Source: Ruficoccus sp. ZRK36
GTDB taxonomy: Bacteria; Verrucomicrobiota; Verrucomicrobiia; Opitutales; Cerasicoccaceae
Direction of reading: 5' to 3'
DNA: 64,000 nucleotides
Assembly (NCBI RefSeq): GCF_019603315.1
Contig: NZ_CP080649.1
Span: 3,110,176 to 3,174,175 of the forward strand
In this document: piece by piece, positions 2,933-45,280 of the stretch
Position numbering within the stretch: position 1 is the stretch's first letter
How the letters are laid out: every line of letters starts with the position of its first letter
Program-made: the position numbers and the translations under genes
The notes under the pieces: model-generated
What the model was told of the DNA's origin: nothing
The model's input: the letters and a program-made list of their open reading frames with translations, nothing else
Databases searched by the model: none

Positions 2933-4951
2933 ATGCCAGCCCCCCAGCCGACAGCCCTACGCCACATCCACGTCTTGTTCAAAACGCACCTGGACATCGG
3001 GTTTACCGACAGCGCCCGGAACGTGCTGCAGACGTATCTCGATGTATTCATCCCGGCCTCTCTCGATCTGGCCGCGCGTATGCACGATGCCGGTAATGAG
3101 CGGTTCCGCTGGACCACCGGCTCCTGGCTGATCGAGCAAGCGCTGGAAAAATACAGCCCCCGGAAACGCGCCCAGCTTGAGGCAGCTATCGAGCGCGATG
3201 ACATCTGCTGGCACGCCCTGCCCTTTACCACGCACACCGAGCTCATGGACGCCGCCTTGTTTCGGCACGGGCTGAGCATCAGCCAGAGGCTCGATCAGCG
3301 CTTTGGCAGAAAAACCATTGCCGGGAAAATGACAGATGTGCCCGGCCACACGATTGCCATGGTTCCCTACCTGGCCGAGGCCGGTGTCGAGCTTCTGCAT
3401 ATCGGCGTGAACCCAGGCTCACGCCCGCCCAAAGTCCCCAAGGCCTTTCGCTGGCGCTATGGCGACGACGAAGTCTGCATCGTCTATCAAACCAGTGACT
3501 ACGGGGGCTTCTGCCAACCGGAAGGCAGCAGCGAGGCCATCTACTTTGCGCACACCGGCGACAATCTCGGCCCCTGTACCCAGCAGGATGTGGAGCAGAC
3601 ATTTGCCCGCCTGCGCAAGAAGTACCCGGAGGCCACGCTGAGCGCTGCGAACCTGTCAGACTACGCCGAGGCCCTCCGGCCAGCCGTACCGGGCCTGCCT
3701 GTGATCACGCAGGAGATCGGTGACACATGGATCCATGGCGTGGCAACCGACCCGGCAAAGACCGGGCTTTACCGGGAGCTCATCAAGTGGCGCTCCACTC
3801 TGCCTAAGCCGAAAAACGCAACAGAGCGCCAGGCACGCAAGGGCCTGGAAGATGCGCTGCTGCTCGTCCCCGAGCATACGTGGGGGCTCGATGTCAAAGT
3901 CGCCCTCGGGCACGAAGACAACTATGACCGCACCTTTATCACGCGGGACTTTCTGCGCAAGCGCAGCATCCCGCCCTACCAGCGTCTGGAGAAATCCTGG
4001 CAGGAACAGCGCTCCTATCTGACGCGCGCCATCAGCGCACTCAAGGGAACACCCGAGCACAAGCAGGCGCTCGCCCTCAAAGCCTCGCTCAAACCCAAGC
4101 GCAGCCGCAGCGGCAAATCGATCGACCCTGCCACCTACATTGATACGCCGTTCTTCGAGCTCGGCATCGACCCGATGACCGGGGCGCTCCACCGCGTGCA
4201 TAGCCACAAAGATAATCGCACCTGGGCAGACAAGGAGCATCCCTGGTTTGAGCTCAGCTACGTCGTCTATGACCGTGAGGACTACGAAAACCGCTGGAAA
4301 CGCTACAACCGTAACCACCGGACGCACCGCAGCTGGGTCGTCCCCGACTTTCTCAAGCCCGGCGTGGAAACCGCCGTCAGCCATCACCAGTGCTGGCTGC
4401 CCCGCCTCAAGGAAGCCAGCCTGCTCCCCGCGACCAAAACAAGCAGCCCACGCCTCTGCCTGAAGTTGAGCTTCCCCACGGAGCCGTGCCGACAGTTTGG
4501 CTGCCCACGCGAGGCCGAGGTGCTCATCAGCTGGGATGAGAAACGCCCACGGCTCCACGCCGAGGTGAAGTGGTTCGACAAGCAGGCCTGCCGCGTACCA
4601 GAGGCCATCTGGATGGCGCTGCGCCCCATATCGACACCAGGCGCAACATGGAGACTCCACAAGCTCGGTCAGCCGATCGACCCTCGCGACGTGATCCTCG
4701 ATGGCGCACGGATGCTGCACGCCGCCGAGCTTTGCGAGTATCAAGACGAGCAGAGCAAGCTACGCATTGACCACCCGCACGCTCCGCTGGTTGCTCCCGG
4801 ACTACCGCAGCTCGTGCGTTTTTCCAACCACCTGCCCGGCCCACGGGAAGGCGTCCATTTTAACCTCCTCAATAATACCTGGGGGACAAATTTCCCGCTC
4901 TGGTACGAGGAAGACGCACGCTTTGCCTTCAGTGTGGACTGGGAGGCCTAG
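2933..4951 (+). CDS. DUF5054 / GH38-like glycosidase-type protein
   Basis: A 672-residue protein from the ATG giving MPAPQPTALRHIHV; an upstream GTG extension of 27 codons lacks family resemblance. Residues about 10-20 read HVLFKTHLDIGFTD, the His-x-Asp-x-Gly pattern of the GH38 alpha-mannosidase N-terminal domain, where these residues bind the catalytic metal. The rest matches what is known as DUF5054, a family common in Verrucomicrobia and Bacteroidetes. There is no signal peptide, so it should act on cytoplasmic oligosaccharides. It is divergent from a LacI regulator, consistent with substrate induction. Activity has not been shown for the family as far as I know; glycoside hydrolysis is an inference. 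Confidence 0.85.
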   Translation: MPAPQPTALRHIHVLFKTHLDIGFTDSARNVLQTYLDVFIPASLDLAARMHDAGNERFRWTTGSWLIEQALEKYSPRKRAQLEAAIERDDICWHALPFTTHTELMDAALFRHGLSISQRLDQRFGRKTIAGKMTDVPGHTIAMVPYLAEAGVELLHIGVNPGSRPPKVPKAFRWRYGDDEVCIVYQTSDYGGFCQPEGSSEAIYFAHTGDNLGPCTQQDVEQTFARLRKKYPEATLSAANLSDYAEALRPAVPGLPVITQEIGDTWIHGVATDPAKTGLYRELIKWRSTLPKPKNATERQARKGLEDALLLVPEHTWGLDVKVALGHEDNYDRTFITRDFLRKRSIPPYQRLEKSWQEQRSYLTRAISALKGTPEHKQALALKASLKPKRSRSGKSIDPATYIDTPFFELGIDPMTGALHRVHSHKDNRTWADKEHPWFELSYVVYDREDYENRWKRYNRNHRTHRSWVVPDFLKPGVETAVSHHQCWLPRLKEASLLPATKTSSPRLCLKLSFPTEPCRQFGCPREAEVLISWDEKRPRLHAEVKWFDKQACRVPEAIWMALRPISTPGATWRLHKLGQPIDPRDVILDGARMLHAAELCEYQDEQSKLRIDHPHAPLVAPGLPQLVRFSNHLPGPREGVHFNLLNNTWGTNFPLWYEEDARFAFSVDWEA

Positions 4952-4981
4952 CTCGTTACGGCTGAGCGCAGCAGCGCAGGC

Positions 4982-5332
4982 TCAGTCCTGATCTTCTTCG
5001 GCGTCGATCTCGTCGATGATCTTGAGCACCTCCGTACCCCGAGCGATTGAGTCATCCTCGATGAAACGCAGGCGCGGCAGGTATTTTAAGACGATGCGCT
5101 TGCTCATCTCCTGCCGGATCTCCCGATGGCGGGCGGCAAAGAACTTCTCCGCCAGGTACGATGTCCCCTCGTCCCCGAGGATCGAGTAGTAGACGCGCGC
5201 GCTGCGCAGGTCACTCGAGACGGCGACCTCCGTGATGGTGATATTCACCGCATCGCCCTGATAGCGGGTGTGCAGGATGTCGCTGATCTCGCGCTTGACC
5301 AGCTCGTTGACGCGTGTTCCCCGATTGGACAT
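4982..5332 (-). CDS. rbfA: 30S ribosome-binding factor A
   Basis: A 116-residue cold-adaptation and 16S rRNA maturation factor. The N-terminus (NRGTRVNELVKREISDIL) and the KH-like core (VNITITEVAVSSDLRSARVYYS) are typical of RbfA, and the length is normal. It follows infB with an 89-base gap, completing the usual nusA-infB-rbfA order. That gap contains a strong hairpin with a T tract on the coding strand, so rbfA expression may depend on read-through or on a separate promoter. The stop is 30 bases from the end of the convergent DUF5054 gene. Confidence 0.95.
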   Translation of the reverse strand: MSNRGTRVNELVKREISDILHTRYQGDAVNITITEVAVSSDLRSARVYYSILGDEGTSYLAEKFFAARHREIRQEMSKRIVLKYLPRLRFIEDDSIARGTEVLKIIDEIDAEEDQD

Positions 5333-5360
5333 GACTGATAACTAAGGGTGACTGGAGTGG

Positions 5361-5392
5361 AAAAACGGCGCGGCTCCGCTGGAACCGCGCCG
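5361..5392 (-). terminator. Rho-independent terminator between infB and rbfA
   Basis: On the minus strand the sequence forms an 8-bp stem (CGGCGCGG with CCGCGCCG), with a further TCC/GGA pairing inside the loop, followed directly by TTTTT. This is a textbook intrinsic terminator placed after the infB stop and before rbfA. The structure is seen directly; its efficiency is not known. Confidence 0.75.
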
Positions 5393-5421
5393 CCGGGAAA
5401 GGATACCCGTCGCAGAGTCTG

Positions 5422-7926
5422 CTAGCGCAGGCTCGGACGGAACTCGTGGATTTCGTAGCACTCGATGCGGTCGCCTTCCTTGTAGTCGTTGCAGCCGCTG
5501 ATCTGGATACCACACTCGTAGCCGGCGCGCACCTCGGTGGCGTCGTCCTTGAAGCGTTTGAGGGTACCGATACGGCCCTCGTGGACGACCTCCTCCTTGC
5601 GCAGCAGGCGGGCGTGAGCGTCGCGCTTGATCATGCCCTCCGTCACCATACAACCGGCGACCTGGCCCTTGGCCAGCGGGAAGGTGGCGCGAACCTCGGC
5701 CATGCCGAGTTTGACTTCGCGGAACTCCGGATCGAGCAGCTCGGCCATGGCTTCTTCGACCGAGGTGATGAGCTCGTAAATGATGTTGTGCTGGATGATG
5801 CGCACGCCGTGGTGCTTGGCCAGTGCGGTGACACCGTTCTCCTGCTTGACGTTAAAACCGATCACGGCGGCCTCCGAAGAGTCGGCCAGGGTGACGTCAT
5901 TCTTGGTGATCACACCAACACCGGTCTCGATGACCTCAAGCTTGACCTTGTCGCTTTCAATGGCGTTGAGGCAGTCAGCGAGAGCTTCGACACTGCCGTT
6001 CACGTCGCCCTTGATCACGACACGCAGCACCTTGGAGGACTGCTCGTCGATGGCGGCCAGGAGGCTGTCCAGATCGCTCGCACCCGAAGTAACAACCGGC
6101 GTGGCGTTGGCTTCGGCCTTGAGGGCCTGCTCGTTTTCTTCGGCCTCACGCTTGGCGGCCTTTTCGTTTTTGGCCACGGTGCAGACGGCTCCGGAAGTCG
6201 GCGTGCCCGACCAGCCCATGATGCGGACCGGAGTAGAGGGCGGCGCAGTCTTAATCGGCTTGCCGTGCTCGTTCATCATGGCGCGAACCTTACAGTAGTT
6301 CGGGCCAGAGACCAGAGCGTCGCCGACCTTGAGCGTGCCCTTCTGGATGATCACGGTAGCGGTCGGGCCTCTGCCCTGCTCTACCTGCGACTCCACGATG
6401 ACCCCTTCGGCGTTGGCCTTGGGGTTGGCGCGCAGTTCGCTGACTTCGGCCTGGAGCAGAACGAGCTCCAGCAGCTCTTCGATGTTTGTTCCCTCCAGTG
6501 CAGAGACCGGAGTGCAAAGAGTTTCACCGCCCCAGTCTTCGGGCATGAGGTCGCGCTCCTGCATCTGCTGCTTGACGCGGTCGATGTTGGCTCCCTTGGC
6601 GTCCATCTTGTTGATGGCGACGATGATCTCGACATTCGCGTTGCGGGCGAACTTAAGAGCCTCGTCAGTCTGCGGCATAAAGCCGTCATCGGCTGCCACG
6701 ACCAAAATAGCGATGTCGGTGACATTGGCACCACGCTCACGGATCTTGGAGAAGGCCGCGTGCCCCGGGGTGTCCAGGAAGGTGATCTTCTTCTCGTTGT
6801 GCGTGATCTGGTACGCACCGACGTGCTGGGTGATACCACCGGCCTCGCCAGAGACGACGTTGGCCTTGCGGATCTTGTCCAGCAGGCTGGTCTTACCGTG
6901 GTCAACGTGACCCAGTACACAGACAACCGCGGGGCGCTCCTCCATCAGGGCGGGATCGTCTTCGCGGGGCTTGTCCTTCTTTTTCTTGGGCTCGGGCTTG
7001 TCATCGCCGCGGTGGCGAATATCCAGCGTGAAGCCATGGCGCTCGGCAATTTGCTTGGCGTTGGCTTCCTCGATCGCCTGATTCATCGAGGCGAAAATAC
7101 CCATCTCCATCAGTTCGGAAATGAGCTGGAAAGGTTTCTTGCCCAGAAGTACGGCGAAATCGCGCACGACGATGGGGGGCTTGACCTGGATGATCTTCTC
7201 ACCCTCCTTCTCGATCACCTTACCGGCAGCAGGAGCCTGCTGGCCAGGCTGCTGAGGCTTGGGAACGGACGGCGGAATAATTGGGCTGTTCGTCGGGCGA
7301 ACCGGAGCCGGGATCTTAACCGGAGGGGGCGTCGTCGAAGGCGCGGCACCGGCAGCGCCGGGTGCGGGCGGAGTGGACGGCGCAGCAGGTGTACGCGGCG
7401 GCACCGGTGAGGGTGCGGCACGGCCGGGAGCCGTCACGGGCGGCGCAGGCATCGGGCGGCGCGCACTGGGCATTGGCGGAGGCGGCGGAGACTTACGCTC
7501 GGGCATCGGCGGAGTGGCCGGGCCAGCCTTCGGGCCGGGGGTAACCATAGCCTCGCGCTGAGCCTGGCGGACGGCCGCGCGCTCTTCTTCACGCTTGTGG
7601 CGGGCCTCCTCGGCAGCGGCTTCCTTCTCGCGCTTCTCCTGCTCGATCTGAGCGGGCGTCTTCACGATGGCGGACGGGGGCAGCTTCGGAACAGCAGGAC
7701 CAGGCGTGACTGCATCTGAGGCAGGAGCATCAGCGGGCTCGGAGGTCTTTTCGCTATCGGCGTCAGTGCCCTCCCCGCTAAATTCTTCGATGAGCGCCTG
7801 GGCGGAGATGTTATCAACCGTGCTCGAGGCGCTTTTCACCTCAAAACCACGATCGCGGAGGAGTTGCATAACCTCCTTGTTTTCCATGTTCAGCTCTTTG
7901 GAGAGCTCGTAAATGCGGACACTCAT
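5422..7926 (-). CDS. infB: Translation initiation factor IF-2
   Basis: An 834-residue GTPase that brings initiator tRNA to the 30S subunit. An IF2-N domain starts the protein ([20 protein letters not shown]). It is followed by a charged helix and a long Pro/Ala-rich linker (about residues 130-240). A second N-type domain lies at about 255-300. The G domain carries GHVDHGKT (339-346), DTPGH (385-389) and NKMD (439-442), and is followed by the beta-barrel and C-terminal domains. The length is in the normal range for the long form. It follows nusA with a 34-base gap. The ATG start is supported by the conserved N-terminus. Confidence 0.98.
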
Positions 7927-18079: not shown

Positions 18080-18165
<86 letters not shown>

Positions 18166-18590
18166 GGGGCGCGAAACGAAACGCACAGCACAGGGAATAA
18201 TCTGCCCGAAGGCAAGTGCGCAAAAGCTCCTCATCGGCTGAAACTTGTCCTAAGCACGATGGAGATAAAATGTCCCAAACTGAGTCACCACCATAGTGCA
18301 TGGAGAGAATAGAGATATTCTCGGCCCAAAAGTATGCTCGGGCAACATTTCAACATAACGAGTCACAATGGGATCGGCCATTAGTATGGTTAATGCATCG
18401 ACAACCACCACAAATACGACATCCACGAAACACCACAAAATGAAAATGTAACACAAATCACTGATTTAAGCTTCCACTAGGCCGCAGAGATTATAATAGT
18501 ATACTTTATATTAACAATCTAATCCCACATTTATATCCACACGAGGATATAATCCCTGAGTTTCAGCCCCCTCAACTATCAGTAGCTACC
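18166..18590. other. AT-rich intergenic region holding one copy of a 23-bp repeat
   Basis: A 425-base region 5' of tRNA-Leu and upstream of the BACON-repeat gene. The first 60 bases keep the GC content of the chromosome. After the 23-bp repeat at 18228-18250 the composition turns AT-rich and stays so through the next gene. A 68-codon minus-strand reading frame (18250-18456) has a hydrophobic start but no recognisable homology and is not called. AT-rich -10-like sequences (TATAAT, TATACT around 18490-18505) may form the promoter of the next gene. Confidence 0.5.
18228..18250. repeat. 23-bp direct repeat, left copy
   Basis: Begins TCCTCATCGG and ends AACTTGTCC. An identical 23-base copy lies at 20736-20758, on the other side of the AT-rich gene and next to the rrf2 stop codon. 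The sequence context changes on both sides of each copy, so the identity is confined to these 23 bases. Confidence 0.9.
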
Positions 18591-20681
18591 ATGAAAAGAT
18601 GCGCATGTTTTTTATTTATCTCATTCATTGCGCTAATCGCAAATGCATCTCAAATTATCTATACACACTTAGATAAAAGGCTAACACTGATGGAGATCGA
18701 TTACGTCGGAGTGAGCCCAGAATATGGGATGTGGGATATAGGAACCAGAGAAGTTAACGAACCATACTATCCTGAATACAATAAACTAGGAGTTGAAGAC
18801 GCTATCGCCGGCAATATAAAATACCGTCAAATATGGTGGTACAAACTAAATCAGGATATACCTGATAATGCCATCAACATCAGATTTTATTTTAACCGTT
18901 ATAGCGTCTCAGAAATAGAGCATGCAGAAACTTCGGGCACACGAGAGATAACTGCTTCATGCATAAACATAGGCCCAGTTGAGTTCAGCATAAAAAGCAA
19001 CAAGTCTAAATTTGAGCTCATTAAAGATGCATCTACCACCCTAATTGATTCAAGACCGCTATCCCCAGAGTATGCCGGAATAACACTCTGCTACAATACT
19101 GGTTTATTATACAATATTAGCATAGTAGAAAAGCAATGGATCGGTGTTGCATTTACTGTAGATGAAAGATTAACACCCGGCATTGATGACACCTGTAAGC
19201 TTGAGGTAAACTACTACAAATACCAAGGATCATCTTATCACCCCGTAATATACTATGACCTTCCAACAACAACAATTACGCCAACGAGCAAGCATATTGA
19301 TAGCCACTCCGGGAGTTACACAATCGACGTAACATCTAACACATCCTGGACAGTAAGTGATGTACCACACTGGGCAAGTGCAGCATCAACACCAGGGGGC
19401 GGAAATGGTTCAATTACGATCACATATCGTTCAAATGAATCCACAAGCAGTCGTAGTGCAGTCATTAAAATTGGCGATAAAACGCATACGATTACACAAG
19501 CTGGAAAGGCACCTAGCACAAGCATAAGCCCCACAAGCATGACTATAGCTGCTTCGGGTGATGGATACCATATCATTGTAACCTCAAATGTAGATTGGGC
19601 CGTCAGGGGTCTCCCAGACTGGGCATTCGCGCAATTAGCCTCAGGCAGCGGTAACGGGCAAGTCTGGATTTCAGCCTACCCCAACAACTCAACCGATAGC
19701 CGCAGCGCTACGTTCACGATCGGAGGAAAAAGCCATACAATAACGCAGTCCGGCACCACACCTTCAACCAACATCACTCCAACAACAAAGAGTGTAGGCA
19801 ACGGCGACGGCAGTTACACTCTCAGTGTAGCATCGAACACATCCTGGCAGGTAAGCGGATCGTACAATTGGGTTAGGGCAAACATAAACGCGGGAAGCGG
19901 AAACAGCAGCATTACAATCACTTACGACCCAAACAACTCAACCGATAGCCGCAGCGCTACGTTCACGATCGGAGGAAAAAGCCATACAATAACGCAGTCC
20001 GGAAAAGAAGAATCAAACCCCTTACTGTTCAAAGAAGACTTTAAAGACCTGAAATCGTGGACTACATGGGGGCATCCCTCACCTTATATAGATTACGAAA
20101 TCGGAAATCCTGCCCCTAGTTTCTGCAATAATGGTGACAGCAGCTGGGATAGCGGGATCACCTCAATTGCAATATTTGATTATTCAACCGGATTAACCAT
20201 AGAAGCGAATGCCTATCAAATTGAGTTTGATACTTGGGAAAGCTTTGTCTTTGGCCTATCAAGTGTGCCTTCTTACGGCAATAACGAAGGGGTAAAGCCA
20301 TCTGTTTGGATACGCTCGAAGCATGACAACGGAGATATAACCCAGTGCGGTCTCTATTACAGCGCATCCGATACAGAGGTCTTCGAGACCTATGATGCCG
20401 ATACGAGTTGGAGAATTTATCGCATCGTTATATTACCCGATAGAAGAGTTAAGTTTTATAAGGGTGATCAGATGATTTATTCCTCTACCCATACCCTTTC
20501 ACTTGGCTTCAACCATATGCCACTGGTGGTCGGTGGACGAGCATCCTCTACCGTTTTAGTTGACAACATAGAAGTGTACTCAGGTGAGCCAAAATCAATT
20601 ACGCCTACGCTAGGTATAGCGAATAAACGAACAAGCATCCCAATACCCATCCCACTGAAATGGTCAAAATTGTTTAAATGA
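18591..20681 (+). CDS. Exported BACON-repeat surface protein, AT-rich and probably acquired
   Basis: A 696-residue secreted protein. A signal peptide (CACFLFISFIALIANA) is followed by a region of about 200 residues that I do not recognise. Three tandem repeats of about 83 residues follow (about 225-475), each with an S(Y/H)xIxVxSNxxW start and an SAxxxIGxKxHTITQ(A/S)G end, typical of BACON domains. A C-terminal beta-sandwich of about 190 residues (KEDFKDLKSWTTWG...VDNIEVYSG) resembles carbohydrate-binding or concanavalin folds. There is no PEP-CTERM tail. Codon use is strongly AT-rich compared with every neighbour and a 23-bp direct repeat brackets the gene, both signs of transfer. A role in binding mucin- or glycan-like material is only suggested by the BACON family. 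Confidence 0.85.
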   Translation: MKRCACFLFISFIALIANASQIIYTHLDKRLTLMEIDYVGVSPEYGMWDIGTREVNEPYYPEYNKLGVEDAIAGNIKYRQIWWYKLNQDIPDNAINIRFYFNRYSVSEIEHAETSGTREITASCINIGPVEFSIKSNKSKFELIKDASTTLIDSRPLSPEYAGITLCYNTGLLYNISIVEKQWIGVAFTVDERLTPGIDDTCKLEVNYYKYQGSSYHPVIYYDLPTTTITPTSKHIDSHSGSYTIDVTSNTSWTVSDVPHWASAASTPGGGNGSITITYRSNESTSSRSAVIKIGDKTHTITQAGKAPSTSISPTSMTIAASGDGYHIIVTSNVDWAVRGLPDWAFAQLASGSGNGQVWISAYPNNSTDSRSATFTIGGKSHTITQSGTTPSTNITPTTKSVGNGDGSYTLSVASNTSWQVSGSYNWVRANINAGSGNSSITITYDPNNSTDSRSATFTIGGKSHTITQSGKEESNPLLFKEDFKDLKSWTTWGHPSPYIDYEIGNPAPSFCNNGDSSWDSGITSIAIFDYSTGLTIEANAYQIEFDTWESFVFGLSSVPSYGNNEGVKPSVWIRSKHDNGDITQCGLYYSASDTEVFETYDADTSWRIYRIVILPDRRVKFYKGDQMIYSSTHTLSLGFNHMPLVVGGRASSTVLVDNIEVYSGEPKSITPTLGIANKRTSIPIPIPLKWSKLFK
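19683..20002 (+). repeat. 71-bp exact intragenic direct repeat (two copies)
   Basis: Bases 19683-19753 and 19932-20002 are identical over 71 bases, 249 bases (83 codons) apart. They encode the same C-terminal part of BACON units 2 and 3 (NNSTDSRSATFTIGGKSH and following). The perfect DNA identity against diverged flanks points to recent duplication or gene conversion between the units. Confidence 0.92.
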
Positions 20682-20735
20682 GAATCGATAAGTAAGCAAA
20701 GCGCCTTCGGAGCTTACCGACAATTGCTGCCACAA

Positions 20736-20758
20736 TCCTCATCGGCTGAAACTTGTCC
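20736..20758. repeat. 23-bp direct repeat, right copy
   Basis: Identical to 18228-18250. It lies 15 bases beyond the stop codon of the Rrf2-family gene (minus strand). The 2.5 kb between the copies contains only the AT-rich BACON gene and its flanks. Confidence 0.9.
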
Positions 20759-20773
20759 AACGCCGAATGCTCT

Positions 20774-21184
20774 CTAGATATAGTACATGGGACCGGTTTC
20801 GGCGACCATGTCTGAGAGGGGGATGTTTTTCGTGCGCTCGGCGAAGGTGTCTCCGATCTCGGCCCAGATGCCCTGCACGGCCTGGCCGGACTGGCCGTTG
20901 GCGGAGACGGAGTTCTCCAGCATCTCGGCATCGACGATGCGGATGATGTCGTAGAGGGAAATCTCAGACGGTGCCTGCGCCAGCGCGTAGCCACCCTGCT
21001 TGCCACGGCGGCTGGTGATGAGCCCACCGTTACGCAGCTCGTTAAGGATCTGCACCAGATAGTTGGCCGGGATGTCCTCGGCCTGGGCCAGCTCCTCGAT
21101 ATGGGCGAGCTGCTGGTTACCATGAGAGCGGGCGAGCTGGGCCAGCACCCGGCAGGCGTATTCGACTTTGAGAGATATTTTCAC
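20774..21184 (-). CDS. Rrf2-family transcriptional regulator
   Basis: A 136-residue winged-helix protein. It starts with a GTG (MKISLKVEYACRVLAQLA), has the family's recognition region (IPANYLVQILNELRNGGLITSRRGKQGGYALA) and the usual length. The three clustered cysteines that bind [2Fe-2S] in IscR and NsrR are missing; only one Cys, near the N-terminus, is present. It may therefore sense something other than an Fe-S cluster, as CymR-type members do. It stands alone, 132 bases from the divergent mscS gene. Confidence 0.92.
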   Translation of the reverse strand: MKISLKVEYACRVLAQLARSHGNQQLAHIEELAQAEDIPANYLVQILNELRNGGLITSRRGKQGGYALAQAPSEISLYDIIRIVDAEMLENSVSANGQSGQAVQGIWAEIGDTFAERTKNIPLSDMVAETGPMYYI

Positions 21185-31222: not shown

Positions 31223-31256
31223 AAAAAAGGAGAGGGAATATTCCCTCTCCTTTTTT
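31223..31256. terminator. Bidirectional terminator
   Basis: A perfect palindrome of 34 bases: six A, GGAGAGGGA, ATAT loop, TCCCTCTCC, six T. It works in both directions on paper, separating the large plus-strand gene from the convergent nifA gene. Confidence 0.92.
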
Positions 31257-31362: not shown

Positions 31363-33000
31363 CTACCCCTGTTTGGCGAAACGTTTGAGGTCGATATCGT
31401 ACTTTTTGACGCGGAGCCCCATCTTGCGCTCGGTCAGGCCGAGTCGGCGTGCGGCTTCGGCCATGTTGCTGCCCGTTTCCTTGAGCGTATCCACGATCAA
31501 CTCGCGCTCCACCGCCTGCACAGCGTCCTCCAGCGTCGCGCTTTCAGACTCTTTGCGCTCGGCAGCGTTCTTTTTCTGAAGCGTAGGCGGCAGATGGTGA
31601 GCCTTGATCGACTGCCCCTTGGACAGCAAGACAGCCCGCTCGATGCAGTTTTCCAGCTCACGTACATTACCCGGCCAGTGATAGCTCATGAGCAGGTCGA
31701 TCGCTGCGGACGAGATGCGTACCGGCTTGCGGCCCGCACGCTCACTGTACTTTTCGATAAAATGGTCGGCCAGCATGAGGATGTCGCAGGTGCGCTCCCG
31801 CAGCGGCGGCATATAGATCGGGAAGACATTCAGGCGGTAATACAAGTCCTCCCGGAAGGTCCCCTCCTCCATCATCTTTTCCAGATCGCGGCTGGTCGCT
31901 GCGATGATGCGCACATCGACCTTGATCGTCTTCTGGCTGCCGACACGCTCAAACTCGCGCTCCTGCAGCACCCGCAGGAGCTTGATCTGGGTGGCGATCG
32001 AAATGTCGCCGATTTCGTCGAGGAAGATCGTTCCCTTGTCGGCCAACTCAAAGCGTCCCTTGCGCATGGCCAGCGCACCGGTAAAGGCGCCCTTTTCGTG
32101 ACCAAAGAGCTCGCTCTCGATAATCGAATCCGGCAGCGCAGCGCAGTTGAACTTCACAAAGGGCTGCTTCGTGCGAGATCCTTTTTCGTGCAGGGCCTTC
32201 GCGACCAGCTCCTTACCGGTTCCGCTTTCACCACGTACGAGGACTGTCGTCGAACTCGTCGCCACCTGCTCGATATGATAGTACACGGACTGCATCAAGC
32301 TAGAGTTGCCGATCATATTTCGCGGGCGAAAGCTGTGGGCGATCTCCTTCTGGAGGCGGTCGTTCTCCTCGCGCAGGCTCTGAATACGCTCGGCAGCCTG
32401 CTGGCGTACGCGAGCGGCCTGGGCAATGATCGAAGCGATCATCGTTAAAATCCGTAAGTCTGCCTCCCAGCCGACATCCGGGTCGTGCGGACGCTCAATG
32501 CTCAGGGTGCCGATGGCCTCGTTCTCAAATTTGAGGGGCACACTGACCAGCCCCGACCGGGCACCGATATTCAGTGTCTTCAGGACGTCGGCCTCGACGC
32601 CCTGCTCCTCCAGCCAGTTGGCAAAATTCGGGACGATCACGGGGTTGCTGCGGCGTACGGTCTCTTCCAGCTGCGGCTTGATCAACGCCAGATAGTCCCT
32701 GGAGCTCATGCTACGCGGCAGTCCAACGGCCTCCGAGACAAGAAACCTGCCCGTATCGCGGCTCACAATCGCAATCGTACCGCGTTCCAGGCCGATCATG
32801 TCCTGCAGGCGTCGCAGCACTGGCTTTACAATATCGGTCAGATCAAAGCTCTTTTCCAGGGTCTGGCTGATCGCAAACAGCAAGCTCAGCTCCTGCACGG
32901 ACCGACAACTGACCCCCATGGTACGGTTCAGCAAGTCCAGCGAAGGCCCCTCCCTCGCTAGCACGCATCCGATGTTCTTACAGGTATTCGGTTCAGTCAT
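31363..33000 (-). CDS. nifA: NifA-type sigma-54-dependent activator
   Basis: A 545-residue enhancer-binding protein. A GAF domain lies at about residues 35-200. The AAA+ domain carries Walker A GESGTGKE (257-264) and the sigma-54 contact loop GAFTGA (304-309). A Fis-type helix-turn-helix closes the protein (NMAEAARRLGLTERKMGLRVKKY). Divergence from nifH makes it the obvious activator of the nif operon. The linker between AAA+ and HTH lacks the cysteine pair of oxygen-sensing NifA proteins, but Cys7, Cys12 and Cys32 precede the GAF domain. nifL is absent. The ATG is preceded by AGGAG. Confidence 0.93.
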   Translation of the reverse strand: MTEPNTCKNIGCVLAREGPSLDLLNRTMGVSCRSVQELSLLFAISQTLEKSFDLTDIVKPVLRRLQDMIGLERGTIAIVSRDTGRFLVSEAVGLPRSMSSRDYLALIKPQLEETVRRSNPVIVPNFANWLEEQGVEADVLKTLNIGARSGLVSVPLKFENEAIGTLSIERPHDPDVGWEADLRILTMIASIIAQAARVRQQAAERIQSLREENDRLQKEIAHSFRPRNMIGNSSLMQSVYYHIEQVATSSTTVLVRGESGTGKELVAKALHEKGSRTKQPFVKFNCAALPDSIIESELFGHEKGAFTGALAMRKGRFELADKGTIFLDEIGDISIATQIKLLRVLQEREFERVGSQKTIKVDVRIIAATSRDLEKMMEEGTFREDLYYRLNVFPIYMPPLRERTCDILMLADHFIEKYSERAGRKPVRISSAAIDLLMSYHWPGNVRELENCIERAVLLSKGQSIKAHHLPPTLQKKNAAERKESESATLEDAVQAVERELIVDTLKETGSNMAEAARRLGLTERKMGLRVKKYDIDLKRFAKQG

Positions 33001-33218
33001 ATGTCGCTCCTATATATAGCTTAGCGAGTGCCGGATCATCAGATTCACAAAAAATCAGACCATTCTGGCCGGGTTATACGCAGTTATAAAAGACGCTCAG
33101 ATCAGCTTTATTTTCTCTGATAGGCCATAAACCCAAGAATAGCACGGTTAGCCTCCTTGGCATAAATGGAGCTATTTTCCAAATAAGAGATACTAATCAC
33201 CGCGCCATAGATCGAAAG

Positions 33219-33265
33219 CTACATTTATGTAGGATGGCACATTCACGGCGCACGGAAATGTAGGA
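33219..33265. promoter_or_regulatory. Candidate activator-binding sites upstream of nifH
   Basis: The palindrome CTACAT-TT-ATGTAG occupies 33219-33232, and the 8-mer ATGTAGGA occurs at 33227-33234 and again at 33258-33265, 31 bases (about three helical turns) later. They sit about 110-160 bases upstream of the -24/-12 promoter, where NifA enhancer sites usually lie. The classical TGT-N10-ACA site was not found; the closest is TGT-N8-ACA at 33228-33241. Function is inferred from position and symmetry. Confidence 0.45.
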
Positions 33266-33360
33266 AAACCGCCCCGAAACGCATCAATCACGGCCAGCCA
33301 CATATAATTTATATTTTTCTAAATGCTCACAGTCAATTACTTACAAACCACAAAACAACA

Positions 33361-33377
33361 TTGGCATGCAGGATGCA
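33361..33377 (+). promoter_or_regulatory. Sigma-54 (-24/-12) promoter of the nif operon
   Basis: TTGGCATGCAGGATGCA has GG (33363-33364) and GC (33375-33376) separated by exactly ten bases, matching the YTGGCAYG-N4-TTGC(A/T) consensus with a weakened -12 half. Transcription should begin near 33388, about 50 bases before the nifH ATG. With the divergent nifA gene this supports sigma-54/NifA control of nifHDK and the genes behind it. Confidence 0.78.
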
Positions 33378-33401
33378 CAATCCTTGGCAGCTAAAATCTA
33401 A

Positions 33402-34313
<912 letters not shown>

Positions 34314-34355
34314 GAACAGGCTTCCACACCCGAGGTGCGGACACAGCTCCCTTAT

Positions 34356-34381
34356 GAGGGATCCAGCGCGTACGCGCCCTC
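34356..34381 (+). other. Possible mRNA hairpin between nifH and nifD
   Basis: GAGGG (34356-34360) can pair with CCCTC (34377-34381) around the self-complementary GCGCGTACGCGC (34366-34377). The whole lies in the 100-base nifH-nifD spacer. Such structures can stabilise the nifH message or reduce read-through, which would help make more NifH than NifDK. No T tract follows, so it is not an ordinary terminator. Confidence 0.4.
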
Positions 34382-34413
34382 TTCATCGAAAACCATAAAC
34401 GACAAGTTTCATC

Positions 34414-36072
34414 ATGTCTGACGAAAACAGCACTGGCCCCATGGGGCCTCACGGTCCGGACGCTGCAACCGCACGCGAGGAAATGCTGAAGGTCTATCCT
34501 AAAAAGACCCAGCGCAAGCGTGGTAAGCAGATGCTGGTCAACGAAGAACCCGGTACGCCGGCGGAAATCGGGGCCAACAGCCGCACCGTTCCCGGTATCA
34601 TCACCCAGCGTGGGTGCTCCTACGCCGGTTGTAAAGGGGTCGTCATCGGCCCGATCTACGACATCCTCCACATCACCCACGGCCCCATCGGCTGTGGCTG
34701 GTACAGCTGGCTGTCTCGCCGCAACATCACCAAGATCCGCGGCGAAGGCGAAACCAACTACCTGCAGTACAGCATGTCCACCGACATGCAGGAAGACCAC
34801 ATCGTCTTCGGCGGGGAAAAGCAGCTCGCCGCTGCCATCCAGGAAGCCTACGACGAGTTCCATCCGAAGGCGATCAGCGTCTACGCCACCTGCCCGGTGG
34901 GCCTCATCGGTGACGACATCCACACGGTCTGCCGCACCATGAAGGAAAAGCTCGGGATCAACATCTTCGGCTTCTCCTGCGAAGGCTACAAGGGTGTCTC
35001 CCAGTCCGCCGGTCACCACATCGCCAACAACGGTGTGTTCAAGCACATGATCGGCCTGGACGACAGCCCGGTCGAAGCGAAGTACAAGATCAACATCCTC
35101 GGTGAATACAACATCGGCGGGGATGCCTGGGAAATCGACCGTATCCTGGACCTCTGCGGCATCCACATCATCGGTACCCTCTCCGGGGGTGTCAGCTATG
35201 GTGAGATCTGCAACTGTCACATGGCCGACCTCAACGTCGTCATGTGCCACCGCTCCATCAACTACATGGCTGAGATGATGGAAGAGAAGTTCGGGATCCC
35301 GTGGTTCAAGGTGAACTTCATCGGCATCGAAGGCACGAAGAAGTCCCTCCGCAAGATCGCCCAGTACTTCGGCGACAAGGAACTGATCGACCGCGTTGAA
35401 GAAGTCATCGCTGCCGAGATGTCCGAAGTGAAGCCGATCCTCGACGACATCACGACCCGCACCACCGGTAAGACCGCTGCCCTCTTCGTGGGTGGTAGCC
35501 GCGCTCACCACTATCAGGACCTGTTCACGGACATGGACATGAAGGTGATCGCCGCCGGTTACGAGTTCGCCCACCGCGACGACTACGAAGGCCGCGACGT
35601 GCTCCCGCACATCAAGGTCGACGCTGACAGCCGCAATATCGAAGAGCTCACCGTCACCGCCGACGAAACCCGCTTCGACGCCTCCAAGCCTGAGAAGAAG
35701 AAGTCCCTCGAAGAGAACGGCTTCACCTTCAGCGACTACGAAGGCATGATGCGCCAGATGGCCAAGGACACGCTGGTCATCGACGACATCTCCCACCACG
35801 AGATGGAAAAGCTGATCGAGATGTACCATCCCGACGTCATCGGCTCCGGTATTAAGGACAAGTACATCATCGAAAAGATGGGCGTCCCCTGTAAGCAGCT
35901 GCACTCCTACGACTACGGTGGCCCGTACGCCGGATTCAAGGGAGCGATCAACTTCTACAAGGAGATTGACCGGATGACCGGAAGCAAGGTCTGGAAGCTC
36001 GCTCGTGCCCCCTGGCACGAAGACGGTTCCGCGCCTGCCGCCGAAAAGGAAACCACCACGGCCAGCGCCTAA
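34414..36072 (+). CDS. nifD: Nitrogenase molybdenum-iron protein alpha chain
   Basis: A 552-residue subunit carrying FeMo-cofactor. P-cluster ligands are Cys68 (QRGCSYAGC), Cys94 (HGPIGCGW) and Cys160 (ATCPVGLIGDD). Cofactor ligands are Cys278 (VVMCHRSINY) and His497 (QLHSYDYGGPYAGF). A charged segment of about 50 residues at about 400-455 (rich in Lys, Glu and Asp) is extra compared with the Azotobacter type and is a mark of clostridial-type (group II) NifD. It is not a V or Fe-only enzyme: no anfG/vnfG lies nearby and homocitrate synthase and NifEN accompany it. Confidence 0.98.
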   Translation: MSDENSTGPMGPHGPDAATAREEMLKVYPKKTQRKRGKQMLVNEEPGTPAEIGANSRTVPGIITQRGCSYAGCKGVVIGPIYDILHITHGPIGCGWYSWLSRRNITKIRGEGETNYLQYSMSTDMQEDHIVFGGEKQLAAAIQEAYDEFHPKAISVYATCPVGLIGDDIHTVCRTMKEKLGINIFGFSCEGYKGVSQSAGHHIANNGVFKHMIGLDDSPVEAKYKINILGEYNIGGDAWEIDRILDLCGIHIIGTLSGGVSYGEICNCHMADLNVVMCHRSINYMAEMMEEKFGIPWFKVNFIGIEGTKKSLRKIAQYFGDKELIDRVEEVIAAEMSEVKPILDDITTRTTGKTAALFVGGSRAHHYQDLFTDMDMKVIAAGYEFAHRDDYEGRDVLPHIKVDADSRNIEELTVTADETRFDASKPEKKKSLEENGFTFSDYEGMMRQMAKDTLVIDDISHHEMEKLIEMYHPDVIGSGIKDKYIIEKMGVPCKQLHSYDYGGPYAGFKGAINFYKEIDRMTGSKVWKLARAPWHEDGSAPAAEKETTTASA

Positions 36073-36109
36073 TAGCCCCGCAACAACCAAGTAAAGGAGA
36101 CTATTAACC

Positions 36110-37483
36110 ATGTTAGAAGGAACCACCGCAGAAATCCGCGAGCGTAAAGCTCTGCGCATTAATCCTGCCAAGACCTGTCAGCCCATCGGCGCCATGTACG
36201 CCGCCCTGGGCATCCACAAGTGCATGCCGCACTCACACGGCTCTCAGGGCTGCTGCGCCTACCATCGCAGCCAGCTGACCCGCCACCACAAGGAGCCGGT
36301 CGCCGCTACGACCTCCTCCTTCACCGAAGGCGCTTCTGTCTTCGGCGGGATGGCTAACCTGAAAACCGCGCTGAACAATATCTTCACCATCTACGAACCT
36401 GATATTGTCGCGGTCCACACCACCTGTCTGTCCGAAGTTATCGGTGACGACATCCCGATGATCATCAAGAAGTCCGCCGAGGATGGTATCATCCCCGAGG
36501 GCAAGACGGTCATCCACACCAATACGCCGAGCTTCGCCGGCAGCCACATCACCGGCTTCTCCGGCCAGTGTGCGGCCTTCGTCAAGTACCTGGCTGAGTC
36601 CACGGGTGAAACCAAGAACGTCGTCAACATCTTCCCGGGTTGGGTTGAGCCGGCCGACATGCGCGAAATCAAGCGCCTGGCCGAGTTGGTTGGTGTCGAG
36701 TACATCCTTGCTCCCGACACCTCCGACGTCCTCGACTCCCCGCACGATGGTAAGTACCACATGTACCCGGATGGCGGCACCACGGTTGCCCAGCTCAAGG
36801 CCATGGGTGACAGCTTCCTGAGCATCGCGCTCGGGCCGCTCGCCAGCACCGCCGCTGCCACCGAGCTCGAAAAGAAGTGCAAGGTGCCGAACAAGGTTCT
36901 GGAACTGCCCATCGGCGTCAAGGCTACCGACGAATTCGTCAACGCCCTGCGCCTGGCCGGTGACACCGCTGTTCCCGCCTCGCTCGAAAAGGAACGTGGC
37001 CGCCTGATCGACATGATCAGCGACATGTCCCAGTACATGCACAACCTCAAGGTCGCGATCTTCGGAGACCCGGATCATCTGACCAGCATGGTCAGCTTCC
37101 TCGTGGAAATGGGTGCCAAGCCGATGATCGTTGTCACCGGTACTCCCGGCAAGAAGTGGGAAGGCAAGCTCAAGGAAATCTGCTCCGAAACCAATCCGGA
37201 AGCCGAAGTCCTCGCCTTCAGCGACATCCACTACATGCACCAGTGGATCAAGAATAACCCGGTCGACCTGATCATGGGTAACACCTACGGCAAGTACGTC
37301 GCGCGGACTGAAAAGCTCCCGTTCGTACGCTTCGGGTTCCCGATCCTCGACCGCGTTGGCCACCGCGCCTTCCCGATGCTCGGGTACAACGGCGGCATGC
37401 GCATCATCGAAAAGATCACCGACGCTCTCTTCGACCAGCGCGATCGCGAAGACCCCGACCACGAGGTCGAACTGGTCCTCTAA
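36110..37483 (+). CDS. nifK: Nitrogenase molybdenum-iron protein beta chain
   Basis: A 457-residue partner of NifD. P-cluster cysteines are Cys23 (KTCQPIGAMYA), Cys48 (GSQGCCAYHRS) and Cys106 (HTTCLSEVIGDDI); the segment TPSFAGSHITGFSGQ matches the P-cluster serine region. It lacks the roughly 50-residue N-terminal extension of Azotobacter NifK, as in Clostridium pasteurianum. Translation starts at an ATG with the strong site AAAGGAG, 37 bases after nifD. It forms the alpha2-beta2 MoFe protein with NifD. Confidence 0.98.
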   Translation: MLEGTTAEIRERKALRINPAKTCQPIGAMYAALGIHKCMPHSHGSQGCCAYHRSQLTRHHKEPVAATTSSFTEGASVFGGMANLKTALNNIFTIYEPDIVAVHTTCLSEVIGDDIPMIIKKSAEDGIIPEGKTVIHTNTPSFAGSHITGFSGQCAAFVKYLAESTGETKNVVNIFPGWVEPADMREIKRLAELVGVEYILAPDTSDVLDSPHDGKYHMYPDGGTTVAQLKAMGDSFLSIALGPLASTAAATELEKKCKVPNKVLELPIGVKATDEFVNALRLAGDTAVPASLEKERGRLIDMISDMSQYMHNLKVAIFGDPDHLTSMVSFLVEMGAKPMIVVTGTPGKKWEGKLKEICSETNPEAEVLAFSDIHYMHQWIKNNPVDLIMGNTYGKYVARTEKLPFVRFGFPILDRVGHRAFPMLGYNGGMRIIEKITDALFDQRDREDPDHEVELVL

Positions 37484-37560
37484 ATTACGTTTAGGCCAGA
37501 GAATACAATACACCGCAAAAGATACACTAATACTAAGCAATCAGCTCACCCTACGCCACG

Positions 37561-38052
37561 ATGGAACCGACAATTAGAACAGCCCTTAACGATCAGGCTA
37601 ATCACGAACTTCAGGCTGCCCACAGCTACGAAGGTATGGCATACTGGTGCGAGTCCAACGACTTCCCAGGCTTCGCCAAATTCTTCTTCGCCCAGGCCGC
37701 TGAGGAGCGCGAACATGGGGCCAAGTTCTTCAAACATCTGCTGGATCGCGGTGTCCAGCCGAAGGTCGATTCCATCGAGGCGCCCAGGGGTGAGTTTTCC
37801 TCGCTCAACGAGCTCGCGAGCTACGCTCAGAAGCTCGAAATGCAGAACAGCTCTAACATCCGCCAGTGCTACTCACTGGCACTGGATGTTAAAGATTTCG
37901 ACTGCCAGCCGATGCTGATGTGGTTCATCGAGGAGCAGGTCGAGGAAGAAGCCTGGGCCGCCAAGATGATCACACTGGTCGCCCGCGCCGAGTGCGCGGG
38001 GTCCATTTACGCTCTTGACCGTCATATCGTCAAAGAGCTGGGAGACGACTGA
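37561..38052 (+). CDS. Ferritin (FtnA-type) inside the nif operon
   Basis: A 163-residue four-helix ferritin. The ferroxidase residues line up with E. coli FtnA: Glu16 (ANHE), Glu49 and His52 (EEREH), Glu93 and Gln126, plus Glu125, Glu128 and Glu129 at the third-iron site (EEQVEEE). All ligands are present, so it should oxidise and store iron. It lies between nifK (77 bases) and nifE (115 bases) on the same strand. It could hold iron for the very iron-rich nitrogenase, or remove Fe(II) and oxygen species near it; the role is inferred from position. No haem-binding Met typical of bacterioferritin is evident. Confidence 0.92.
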   Translation: MEPTIRTALNDQANHELQAAHSYEGMAYWCESNDFPGFAKFFFAQAAEEREHGAKFFKHLLDRGVQPKVDSIEAPRGEFSSLNELASYAQKLEMQNSSNIRQCYSLALDVKDFDCQPMLMWFIEEQVEEEAWAAKMITLVARAECAGSIYALDRHIVKELGDD

Positions 38053-38167
38053 GTTTAGGCACCTTTGTTTGGGAAAATTTAGAAGTCTCCCAATAATTTA
38101 ATAATAAGCCAAAAAAAACGAAAAAACGAACCGAACGGCACGCTTAAAGCTAACCCAGTAAGTACTC

Positions 38168-39595
38168 ATGAACAGCGTAAATACACCCAGTTCTATTCGA
38201 GTGCTTGACGACCGGACCGCGCAGGTCTGGGAGAAGGGTTCGGGTAAGGAATTCGTCTGCGACAAAAAGAGCGCAGCCGGTTCCGTTACCCAGCGCGCCT
38301 GCGCTTTCTGTGGCTCCCGCGTCGTACTCTACCCGATCGCTGACGCGCTCCACATCGTACACGGCCCGATCGGATGCGCCGTGTACAACTGGGACATCCG
38401 CGGCTCACTCTCCTCGGGATCGCAGCTGAACCGCAACAGCTTCTCCACCGACCTGGCCGAAAAGGAAGTCATCTTCGGCGGTGAGAAAAAGCTCAAGGCT
38501 TCCCTCATCGAGCTGATCAACTTCTACAAGCCCAAAGCCGCCTTCGTCTACTCGACGTGCATCGTCGGTCTCATCGGTGACGATGTCGAGGCAGTCTGCA
38601 AGCAGGTCACGAAGGAAACGGGCATCCAGTGCATCCAGGTTGACTCGCCCGGCTTTAAGGGCACCAAAAAGAGCGGCTACCAGGCCGCCTGCGAAGCAGC
38701 CTACAAACTGGTCGGCACCGGCGACACCTCGAACATCTCCAAGTACAGCATCAACCTGCTCGGAGAGTTTAACATCGCGGGTGAAGCCTGGATGATCCGC
38801 CAGTACTTCGAAAAGATCGGCATCGAAGTCGTCTCCACCATCACCGGCGATGGCCGGGTGGATGACCTTCGCCGCTGTCACGGGGCCAAGCTAAACCTCG
38901 TGCAGTGCTCCGGGTCCATGACCCACCTTTCCAAACTGCTAAAGGATGACTACGACATCCCCATGGAGCGCGTCTCCTTCTTCGGATTCGAGGATACCGC
39001 CCGTGCTATCTACACCGCCGCCGAGCACTTCGGCGACCCTGAGCTGATGCGCCGCGCCGAGGAGCTTGTCCGCGAGGAAATCTCCAAGTACGCGCCTAAG
39101 CTCAAACAGTACAAAAAGCGCCTCAAAGGCAAAAAGGCTGCCCTCTATGTCGGCGGCGCTTTCAAGGCCTTCTCCCTCGTGCTTGCGCTACGGGCACTGG
39201 GGATGAAGACCGTACTGGCCGGCACCCAGACCGGCAGCGCCGAAGACTACGAGCAGCTCAAGGAAATCTGCGATCCGGGCACCGTGATCGTGGATGATTC
39301 CAACCCGCTCGAGCTGGCAAAGTTCGTCCTGGAAAAGGACGTCGACCTCTTCATCGGAGGCGTCAAAGAGCGCCCCATAGCCTTTAAGCTCGGGGTGGCC
39401 TTCTGCGACCACAACCACGAGCGTAAGATCCCGCTGGCCGGGTTCGAGGGCATGGTCCACTTCGCCGAGGAGGTCGCTAACAGCGCCTGCTCGCCGATCT
39501 GGCAGTTCGCCCCCCGCCGTCAGGCCAAGGCCCTGCGCCTGCCTGAAGCCGAAGCCACCACTCCCCTCGCCCGCGAGGAAGGAGGTGCGGCATGA
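38168..39595 (+). CDS. nifE: FeMo-cofactor assembly scaffold NifE
   Basis: A 475-residue paralogue of NifD. The cluster-ligand region QRACAFCGSRVVLYPIADALHIVHGPIGCAVYNWD, seen around residues 42-78, is typical of NifE, and STCIVGLIGDDVEAV follows. With NifN it forms the tetramer on which the NifB-made core is completed with Mo and homocitrate. The stop codon overlaps the nifN start (ATGA), which points to translational coupling and 1:1 synthesis. The 115-base leader after the ferritin gene is AT-rich; no sigma-54 motif was found in it. Confidence 0.97.
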   Translation: MNSVNTPSSIRVLDDRTAQVWEKGSGKEFVCDKKSAAGSVTQRACAFCGSRVVLYPIADALHIVHGPIGCAVYNWDIRGSLSSGSQLNRNSFSTDLAEKEVIFGGEKKLKASLIELINFYKPKAAFVYSTCIVGLIGDDVEAVCKQVTKETGIQCIQVDSPGFKGTKKSGYQAACEAAYKLVGTGDTSNISKYSINLLGEFNIAGEAWMIRQYFEKIGIEVVSTITGDGRVDDLRRCHGAKLNLVQCSGSMTHLSKLLKDDYDIPMERVSFFGFEDTARAIYTAAEHFGDPELMRRAEELVREEISKYAPKLKQYKKRLKGKKAALYVGGAFKAFSLVLALRALGMKTVLAGTQTGSAEDYEQLKEICDPGTVIVDDSNPLELAKFVLEKDVDLFIGGVKERPIAFKLGVAFCDHNHERKIPLAGFEGMVHFAEEVANSACSPIWQFAPRRQAKALRLPEAEATTPLAREEGGAA

Positions 39596-41001
39596 GCATG
39601 GCTAAAGGAAATCCCGACACGCTGACCGCCGACGGTTGCAAGACCGAGGGCGCGCTTCCAGCCTCCGCCACCCGCAATGCCTGCAAGCTGTGCACCCCGC
39701 TCGGGGCCGCCATGGTCTTTAAGGGTATCCGCGGCTGCCTGCCTTTCCTCCACGGCTCTCAGGGCTGCGCGACATATATCCGCCGCTACATGATCAGCCA
39801 CTTCCGCGAGCCGGTAGACATCGCCTCCTCCAGCTTCTCCGAGGACGATGCGATCTTCGGCGGCGCCCGTAACTTTGCCCAGGGCGTGGACAACGTCATC
39901 CGCCAGTATGAGCCCGAGCTCATCGGCGTGGCCACCACCTGCCTCTCCGAGACCATCGGCGATAACATGCTCGGCATGATCAAGGAGTACCAGGATAAGC
40001 ACAACGGTGACGGCCCGCCGCTGGTCCATGTATCCACTCCCGCCTACACCGGCACCCACAGCGACGGCTACTACTCAGCCATCCGCGAGCTGGTCAAAGC
40101 TTTCGTCAAGCCCACCCGCATCACCCAGCCGCGGATGGTTAACATCCTGCCGGCCATGATGTCCTGCGCCGACCTGCGCCACCTGCGCGAGATCTGCGCC
40201 ATGTACGAGATGGACGCCACGATCCTGCCCGACTACAGCTCCACGCTGGAGGGCAGCAGCTGGGACTGCTACCACAAGATTTCTCCCGGAGGCACTTCTA
40301 TCGAGGATGTCGCCGAGATGGGCAGCGCCGCCGCTTCGATCGAAATCGGCCACACACAGGCTGGTGATAAAAACAGCGCCGCCTCCTGGCTTGAGCGTGA
40401 GCACGGCGTGCGCCGCGATGCGCTGGGCTGGCCTCTGGGCATTCGCCTCAGCGACCAGTTCTTCGCAGCCATGGCTGCCATATCCGACCGCCCGATGCCC
40501 GAGCAGCTTGCTGACGAGCGCGGCCGTCTGGTAGACGCCTACGTGGACGCCCACAAATACGTCTCCGGAAAGCGTGCTGCGATCTTCGGTGAGCCGGATA
40601 TGGTCGTAGCGCTGGCCGCATTCATGAGTGAGATCGGGGTACGCCCCGTCATCTGCGCCACAGGCGCCAAGGTGAAAAAATGGAAAGAGCTGCTCGCCTC
40701 CGAGATCGAAGGCGGCACCGCAGACATCGAGATTCTTTCAGACTCCGACCACGCAAAACTCGCTGCCGCTGCCCGCGAGCTGAAGCCCGACATCATCCTC
40801 GGCTCCAGCAAGGGTTACCCGCTGGCACGCGAACTAAAAATTCCGCTCGTTCGTATCGGTTTTCCGATACATGACCGCATTGGGGCACAGCGTATGCTTA
40901 GTGTTGGATACCGGGGAACGATGGAGCTTTTTGACCGCGTGGCCAATGCCCTCCTCGAAGGCAAACAGGACTTTTCCGAAACCGGTTACAGTTACCTCTG
41001 A
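39592..41001 (+). CDS. nifN: FeMo-cofactor assembly scaffold NifN
   Basis: A 469-residue paralogue of NifK that pairs with NifE. Recognisable segments are NACKLCTPLGAAMVFKGIRG near residue 24, HGSQGCATYIRRY near 46, SSSFSEDDAIFGG near 77 and TTCLSETIGDNM near 111. The start overlaps the nifE stop by four bases. No NifB or NifX domain is fused to it, in contrast to the NifN-B fusions of some clostridia. Confidence 0.96.
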   Translation: MSMAKGNPDTLTADGCKTEGALPASATRNACKLCTPLGAAMVFKGIRGCLPFLHGSQGCATYIRRYMISHFREPVDIASSSFSEDDAIFGGARNFAQGVDNVIRQYEPELIGVATTCLSETIGDNMLGMIKEYQDKHNGDGPPLVHVSTPAYTGTHSDGYYSAIRELVKAFVKPTRITQPRMVNILPAMMSCADLRHLREICAMYEMDATILPDYSSTLEGSSWDCYHKISPGGTSIEDVAEMGSAAASIEIGHTQAGDKNSAASWLEREHGVRRDALGWPLGIRLSDQFFAAMAAISDRPMPEQLADERGRLVDAYVDAHKYVSGKRAAIFGEPDMVVALAAFMSEIGVRPVICATGAKVKKWKELLASEIEGGTADIEILSDSDHAKLAAAARELKPDIILGSSKGYPLARELKIPLVRIGFPIHDRIGAQRMLSVGYRGTMELFDRVANALLEGKQDFSETGYSYL

Positions 41002-41063
41002 CCCCACCCCCTAACGAACTCACTTATTACTTAAAAACCAGGCACTGAGAAAGAGGAACAACT

Positions 41064-42374: not shown

Positions 42375-42442
42375 TCGACTCCGCAGCGTGTATCCAACTT
42401 TCAGTACTCAACACACCATTAATAAGCAATCCACCAACCATC

Positions 42443-42754: not shown

Positions 42755-42779
42755 TCGAAGCATACCGGAATTTACTACC

Positions 42780-42992: not shown

Positions 42993-42997
42993 TTAAA

Positions 42998-44622: not shown

Positions 44623-44698
44623 CGCACCTCCCGCCATCCAATCCTAGCCAACCACAACCCACTTCATACCAGAACAACCATATAACGCACTATCAGTC

Positions 44699-45169: not shown

Positions 45170-45221
45170 GGACTTACTTCAACCACACATTACCGATTCA
45201 ATTATCCGCCCGGGGTGAGCC

Positions 45222-45246
45222 GGGGGCAGGCGCAAGCCGTGCCCCC
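45222..45246 (+). other. Strong hairpin in the flavodoxin-nifJ spacer
   Basis: GGGGGCA-GGC, tetraloop GCAA, GCC, a bulged G, then TGCCCCC: ten base pairs with one bulge and a GNRA loop. It lies 35 bases before the nifJ start. No T tract follows, so it may act in mRNA processing or partial attenuation rather than full termination. Confidence 0.55.
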
Positions 45247-45280
45247 CACTCTCCCGCCCGGAGCAACTCTATAGACTGTC

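Follow-up and report, generated by a model that had tools for sequence, protein, structure and literature searches.

How did a single AT-rich gene come to lie between tRNA-Leu and an rrf2-type regulator gene in the otherwise GC-rich chromosome of Ruficoccus sp. ZRK36, held between two perfect copies of a 23-bp sequence? We analysed the window around it, which is the whole stretch of 64,000 nucleotides and the frame for all positions given below unless another locus is named. We consider it about an even bet (probability roughly 0.5) that the segment is a one-gene islet of foreign origin, with ends resembling attL and attR and a recombinase that has been lost or acted in trans; that it was inserted in one piece, that site-specific recombination did so and where the enzyme came from are what we infer from the observations that follow. 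The features of the locus are these:

18080 to 18165, minus strand: tRNA-Leu (TAA), intact neighbour (ARAGORN; Rfam)
18166 to 18227, minus strand: presumed promoter region of tRNA-Leu, similar in part in two of the three congeners (aligned to the upstream regions of G001 and G002, not G003)
18228 to 18250, plus strand: direct repeat copy 1 (tRNA side), candidate att-like core, exact 23-mer TCCTCATCGGCTGAAACTTGTCC
18251 to 18590, no strand assigned: AT-rich 5' part of the insert, apparently non-coding (GC 0.41; short stop-free runs; no Rfam match)
18591 to 20681, plus strand: passenger gene with signal-peptide-like start, orphan N-terminal region, BACON domains and C-terminal module (ORF, Pfam, GC3)
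20736 to 20758, plus strand: direct repeat copy 2 (rrf2 side), candidate att-like core, exact 23-mer TCCTCATCGGCTGAAACTTGTCC
20774 to 21184, minus strand: rrf2-type regulator gene, intact neighbour (Pfam Rrf2)

A unique 23-bp direct repeat

The preliminary description of this DNA had reported an exact 23-bp direct repeat, and we confirmed it: the 23-mer falls exactly on the two intervals listed, and none of 100 dinucleotide shuffles of the window contained a match at up to three mismatches. It is the longest exact direct repeat of the window, barring a 71-bp one between the BACON repeats of the same gene, and the next longest measure 19 and 18 bp. The 23-mer might have been a common dispersed repeat, as the same description had considered, but the 3.76-Mb genome holds two copies at up to three mismatches, both flanking the BACON gene, and the suggested search for other segments with the same 23-mer returned none at that threshold. 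It is absent at up to three mismatches from all 53 other relatives, in a 54-genome search where a reversed control pattern also yielded one match, and at up to two mismatches from all 371 other genomes of the order, a set that overlaps the 54 relatives. Exact copies are likewise absent from viral_contigs and from genome_contigs, the latter a collection from which records near the window's own may be omitted.

Both copies are intergenic and in the same orientation. Copy 1 sits on the 5' side of tRNA-Leu, 63 to 85 bp upstream; the tRNA itself, described beforehand as lying beside the segment, was placed there by ARAGORN on the minus strand and is not overlapped by the repeat. Copy 2 starts 15 bp past the rrf2 stop codon. 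This arrangement, with each copy adjoining a minus-strand gene, would also suit a regulatory or binding site common to tRNA-Leu and rrf2 and unrelated to any insertion. We hold that explanation to be improbable, since a third genomic copy was not found, the congeners contain none at up to three mismatches, and copy 2 lies downstream rather than upstream of rrf2.

A probable foreign insert with one gene

Between the repeats lies what is most likely a foreign-looking, AT-rich insert of ~2.5 kb with one gene, the AT-rich gene in GC-rich surroundings that had been noted from the first. The BACON gene has a GC content of 0.437 and a GC3 of 0.423, whereas the window as a whole has a GC content of 0.59, and both values are the lowest among 43 window ORFs (at least 100 aa, chosen greedily, some of them wrong-strand or spurious). 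The second-lowest GC3 in the window is 0.442, in a short and probably spurious ORF, and the third is 0.543. Of the GC-skew and codon analysis proposed for this segment, the codon part thus sets the gene apart, and the skew part showed no clear change across the insert borders. The foreign composition is compatible with routes of entry other than site-specific recombination.

The 340 bp ahead of the gene (18251-18590) contain stop-free runs of at most 71 residues, the gene's own frame excepted, and gave no Rfam match at E up to 1. Promoter-like sites numbered 9 against 5.8 in shuffles and terminator-like sites 4 against 3.9, which is not clearly above the shuffled level. At E 0.001 the only Pfam assignment for the gene content of the insert is BACON, and no integration or transfer genes were found. 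No recombinase gene was found inside it among ORFs and Pfam matches, the first 340 bp being judged by their stop-free runs rather than by profiles, and none of the genome's 14 integrase-family matches falls within it. The earlier suggestion of a small integrated unit lacking a recombinase therefore stands as regards its non-dispersed repeat, its foreign composition and the recombinase gene not found in it, and the integration itself is part of what we propose rather than observe.

A short unit with a passenger gene and a flanking direct repeat also recalls a transposon or MITE-like element with a 23-bp target duplication. We regard this as the most improbable of the explanations weighed here. 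The best inverted match between the two 150-bp insert ends was equalled by 42% of 500 shuffles, leaving no terminal inverted repeats beyond chance; the BACON gene matched no transposase family in Pfam; and a 23-bp duplication is longer than usual. The preferred reading of an islet with att-like ends also has a point against it here, since by eye the 23-mer shows no inverted arms of the sort used by tyrosine recombinases. GTTRRRY is the core looked for in an integron gene cassette, and by eye the 23-mer is without it.

Two other features of the window lie outside this locus. Positions 31363-48838 hold a nitrogen-fixation region in which nifH and nifB scored over the NCBIfam cut-offs and a nifA-like activator just below its cut-off, with a pyruvate:ferredoxin (flavodoxin) oxidoreductase also present and, judged by eye, further nif genes likely in between. 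A perfect 34-bp palindrome with A and T runs at 31223-31256 resembles a bidirectional terminator.

The passenger protein

The passenger gene encodes a protein of 696 aa with two BACON-type Pfam families, BACON and BACON_2, in its middle. It had been described as a secreted BACON protein; the Pfam families bear out the domain assignment, and secretion is indicated by first residues that resemble a signal peptide by eye. We consider the product a probable surface or secreted protein, with a binding role suggested by its domains. Residues 1-223 and the last 217 residues gave no Pfam match at E up to 1, and single-sequence structure prediction reached a mean pLDDT of 35. The PDB returned two weak matches, one of the BACON region to a GH5 cellulase (E 0.061) and one to an antibody chain (E 0.086).

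The full gene is absent from the sampled relatives. Searches with the full protein found matches in 4 of the 53 other relatives, all within or near the BACON region, and none in three congeners; the same gene at this place in distant relatives with normal GC, which would have spoken for a resident gene, did not appear in the genomes sampled. The two ends of the protein differ in their reach: the first 223 residues match none of the 343 other genomes of the order (own genome only, of 344), and the last 217 residues match three genomes besides their own among 387 of the phylum. The best of these C-terminal matches (54% identity over 188 residues) lies inside an ORF of ~4000 residues in G561, from another family of the phylum, and a weaker C-terminal relative in G675 adjoins BACON-like sequence, suggesting that the passenger protein is built from modules also used by large proteins of this phylum. 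No relatives of the protein were found in PHROGs, viral_contigs, phages, plasmids or PADLOC, nor in genome_contigs, where the search reached close relatives only.

The site in related genomes

An empty site with one repeat copy between tRNA-Leu and rrf2 would bear directly on insertion, and we compared both loci in three congeners and in G004. For the rrf2 gene itself, each of the 10 genomes searched, own included, holds a single match with E at most 1e-20. In the three congeners tRNA-Leu and rrf2 lie on different contigs and are not neighbours, and therefore no empty site can be read; the rrf2 stretches of these genomes and of G004 contain no tRNA. Since no empty site was seen, the insertion and its ends are putative.

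The order rrf2-mscS-gyrB is conserved in the three congeners, and their likeness to the window stops at the rrf2 stop codon, beyond which the sequence is different in each. The 120 bp past rrf2 bear no significant likeness to the window, the alignment score being equalled by 78% (G001), 13% (G002) and 85% (G003) of shuffles. The surroundings of tRNA-Leu differ in the same way, and a search of the three congeners at E 1e-20, run without a positive control, did not find the esterase gene that lies beyond the tRNA. From these differing surroundings, and from the esterase gene not found, we conclude that the region is variable.

Such variability would be expected had a chromosomal rearrangement, rather than an insertion, brought tRNA-Leu and rrf2 to either side of the AT-rich gene. 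None of the three congeners showed tRNA-Leu, the gene and rrf2 in this order, and the esterase gene beyond the tRNA was not found there either. A rearrangement alone does not yield a perfect 23-bp direct repeat placed exactly round the AT-rich stretch, and we judge this explanation unlikely.

For the islet that we favour, the tRNA side offers a hint as to which repeat copy is the older. The alignment of the window with the DNA upstream of tRNA-Leu in G001 extends into copy 1 and takes in 18 of its 23 bp. None of 1,000 shuffles reached the anchored score and 2.8% reached the unanchored one. A control on real sequence that carries these anchor letters gave scores as high at 10 of 689 positions, counting the observed one, and at 39 of 1,616, and the likeness was absent from the blastn results. 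The alignment with G002 covers only the presumed promoter and four bases beyond it, and the upstream regions of tRNA-Leu in G003 and G004 did not align. The G001 likeness is suggestive of copy 1 as the older site, an indication that the real-sequence control and blastn weaken.

Resident recombinases and repeat pairs elsewhere in the genome

The genome contains 14 tyrosine-recombinase domain matches, 13 of them over the cut-off. We searched for the 23-bp core, ungapped, in 13 stretches of 20 kb (260 kb) that cover all 14, and the nearest likeness had 6 mismatches in 23 positions; it occurred twice, against 0.6 occurrences that we estimate for chance, and in L062 such a stretch is found ~0.3 kb away from an integrase domain. 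Resident tyrosine recombinases could act in trans on the insert, and none is tied to the 23-bp core.

Tyrosine-integrase islands of this genome lie at tRNA-Tyr (L064), tRNA-Asn (L066, two chained islands) and tRNA-Glu (L067). They measure 5-7 kb and have repeats of 31-38 bp that take in the 3' end of the tRNA, with an integrase close to the repeat. The chained pair (L066 5568-18076, in G000:C1:3024001-3044000) has three tRNA-Asn 3'-end copies in common, alike over 38 bp in the first two and over 31 bp in all three.

As a control for how often long repeats enclose AT-rich DNA, we took 464 kb of the genome, consisting of the window and 20 stretches placed away from recombinases, and counted exact direct repeats of at least 23 bp with copies 0.5-8 kb apart, an AT-rich kilobase being one with GC <0.47. 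Only one of the 14 qualifying pairs encloses an AT-rich kilobase, and it is the pair around the BACON gene. The other 13 lie in two stretches (L088 and L092) with common spacings, as expected of duplicated sequence, and enclose DNA of GC 0.52-0.59. In the 260 kb surrounding recombinases, by contrast, five of seven pairs enclose an AT-rich kilobase, all in the three stretches with tRNA islands (L064, L066 and L067), a tally that leaves out one empty interval in L063. Given five of seven pairs there and one of 14 in the control, AT-rich DNA between long repeats is otherwise the DNA of integrase islands in the stretches sampled. L063 also holds an exact tandem duplication of 655 bp (4322-5631, in G000:C1:2886501-2906500).

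Another small repeat-bounded segment was seen in L074 (12030-13272, that is G000:C1:1012030-1013272), where a 35-bp exact direct repeat surrounds a 1.2-kb gene pair that fits two candidate defence models of PADLOC, PDC-M05A and PDC-M05B; no ORF between the repeats has the size of a recombinase gene. The repeat corresponds to the C-terminal tail (GIELPKNGHWQRER) of a truncated ORF and resembles an integrase tail in L072, and a further tyrosine recombinase lies ~1 kb off.

A broader proposal, which we find doubtful, is that the resident tyrosine recombinases act in trans to carry small cassettes of cargo that lack an integrase; the BACON segment would be one such cassette and G000:C1 1012030-1013272 another.

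Proposed origin of the segment

In the preferred reading, circular or island-borne foreign DNA carrying the 23-bp core would have met a like site next to the promoter of tRNA-Leu, and recombination at the core would have left one copy on each side of the ~2.5-kb segment. The insertion point would have this promoter on one side and the rrf2 3' end on the other, leaving both neighbours intact. The recombinase would either have disappeared along with the remainder of a larger island or have been supplied in trans.

The same outcome could in principle be reached without a site-specific recombinase, if one crossover, of RecA type or independent of RecA, took place where incoming circular DNA happened to match over 23 bp, or if a staggered break was filled in as foreign DNA was ligated in; the repeat would then be a scar. 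The lower limit usually quoted for RecA exchange is near 23 bp, which places this repeat at the edge of what RecA would use, and 23 nt would be unusually long for the fill-in of a staggered break. On the other side, the repeat has two copies only and no related att core was found, and a report on E. coli describes RecA-independent recombination between short direct repeats (PMC5426353). We consider such recombinase-free entry a possible if unlikely origin, and retain the att-bounded islet as our working interpretation.

The two sources of a recombinase would carry different meanings. If the segment is a trans-mobilised single-gene unit, surface-protein genes would be movable singly between short attachment cores, without an integrase, and, because islands are normally detected by their integrase, units of this kind, should they be real, would be missed by integrase-based surveys. 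As what remains of an old island, it would instead be one of the ordinary marks left by horizontal gene transfer.

Comparison with known systems

The nearest familiar elements are the tyrosine-integrase islands at tRNA 3' ends, which the BACON insert resembles in being partly AT-rich, beside a tRNA and bounded by direct repeats. Unlike them, it has a repeat that excludes the tRNA 3' end, lying on the 5' side 63-85 bp upstream, and no integrase was found. tRNA-Leu is at most a candidate for its target, and the locus lacks the classical marks of a tRNA 3'-end island.

The segment had been put forward as a possibly previously undescribed passenger element, a claim that we do not uphold: att-repeat segments without recombination genes are a kind of element already known, as the published accounts of cis-mobilizable elements (CIMEs; PMC5704250) and of the H47 genomic island of E. 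coli (PMC3191183) make clear. CIMEs have lost their integration and transfer genes and retained attL and attR (PMC5704250). The BACON insert is like a CIME in that direct repeats bound its cargo and no recombination gene was found among that cargo. It is unlike one in that searches for the core in the genome, the relatives, the order and genome_contigs turned up no ICE, IME or other element sharing it, in that its repeat does not lie in the 3' end of a gene, and in that a single gene is left.

The H47 island lacks its own recombinase, and its excision and integration have both been demonstrated; it measures 12.6 kb and is bounded by long imperfect repeats (PMC3191183). For its excision, none of the host functions tested, including the 16 site-specific recombinases of E. 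coli K12, was involved, according to a later study (PMC5426353). The BACON insert shares with H47 the cargo between direct repeats and the lack of its own recombinase, and its mobility would likewise need host functions, whereas it is 2.5 kb long, has a short perfect repeat and is described here from its sequence. If it is mobile at all, the BACON locus would work in the manner of CIMEs and the H47 island.
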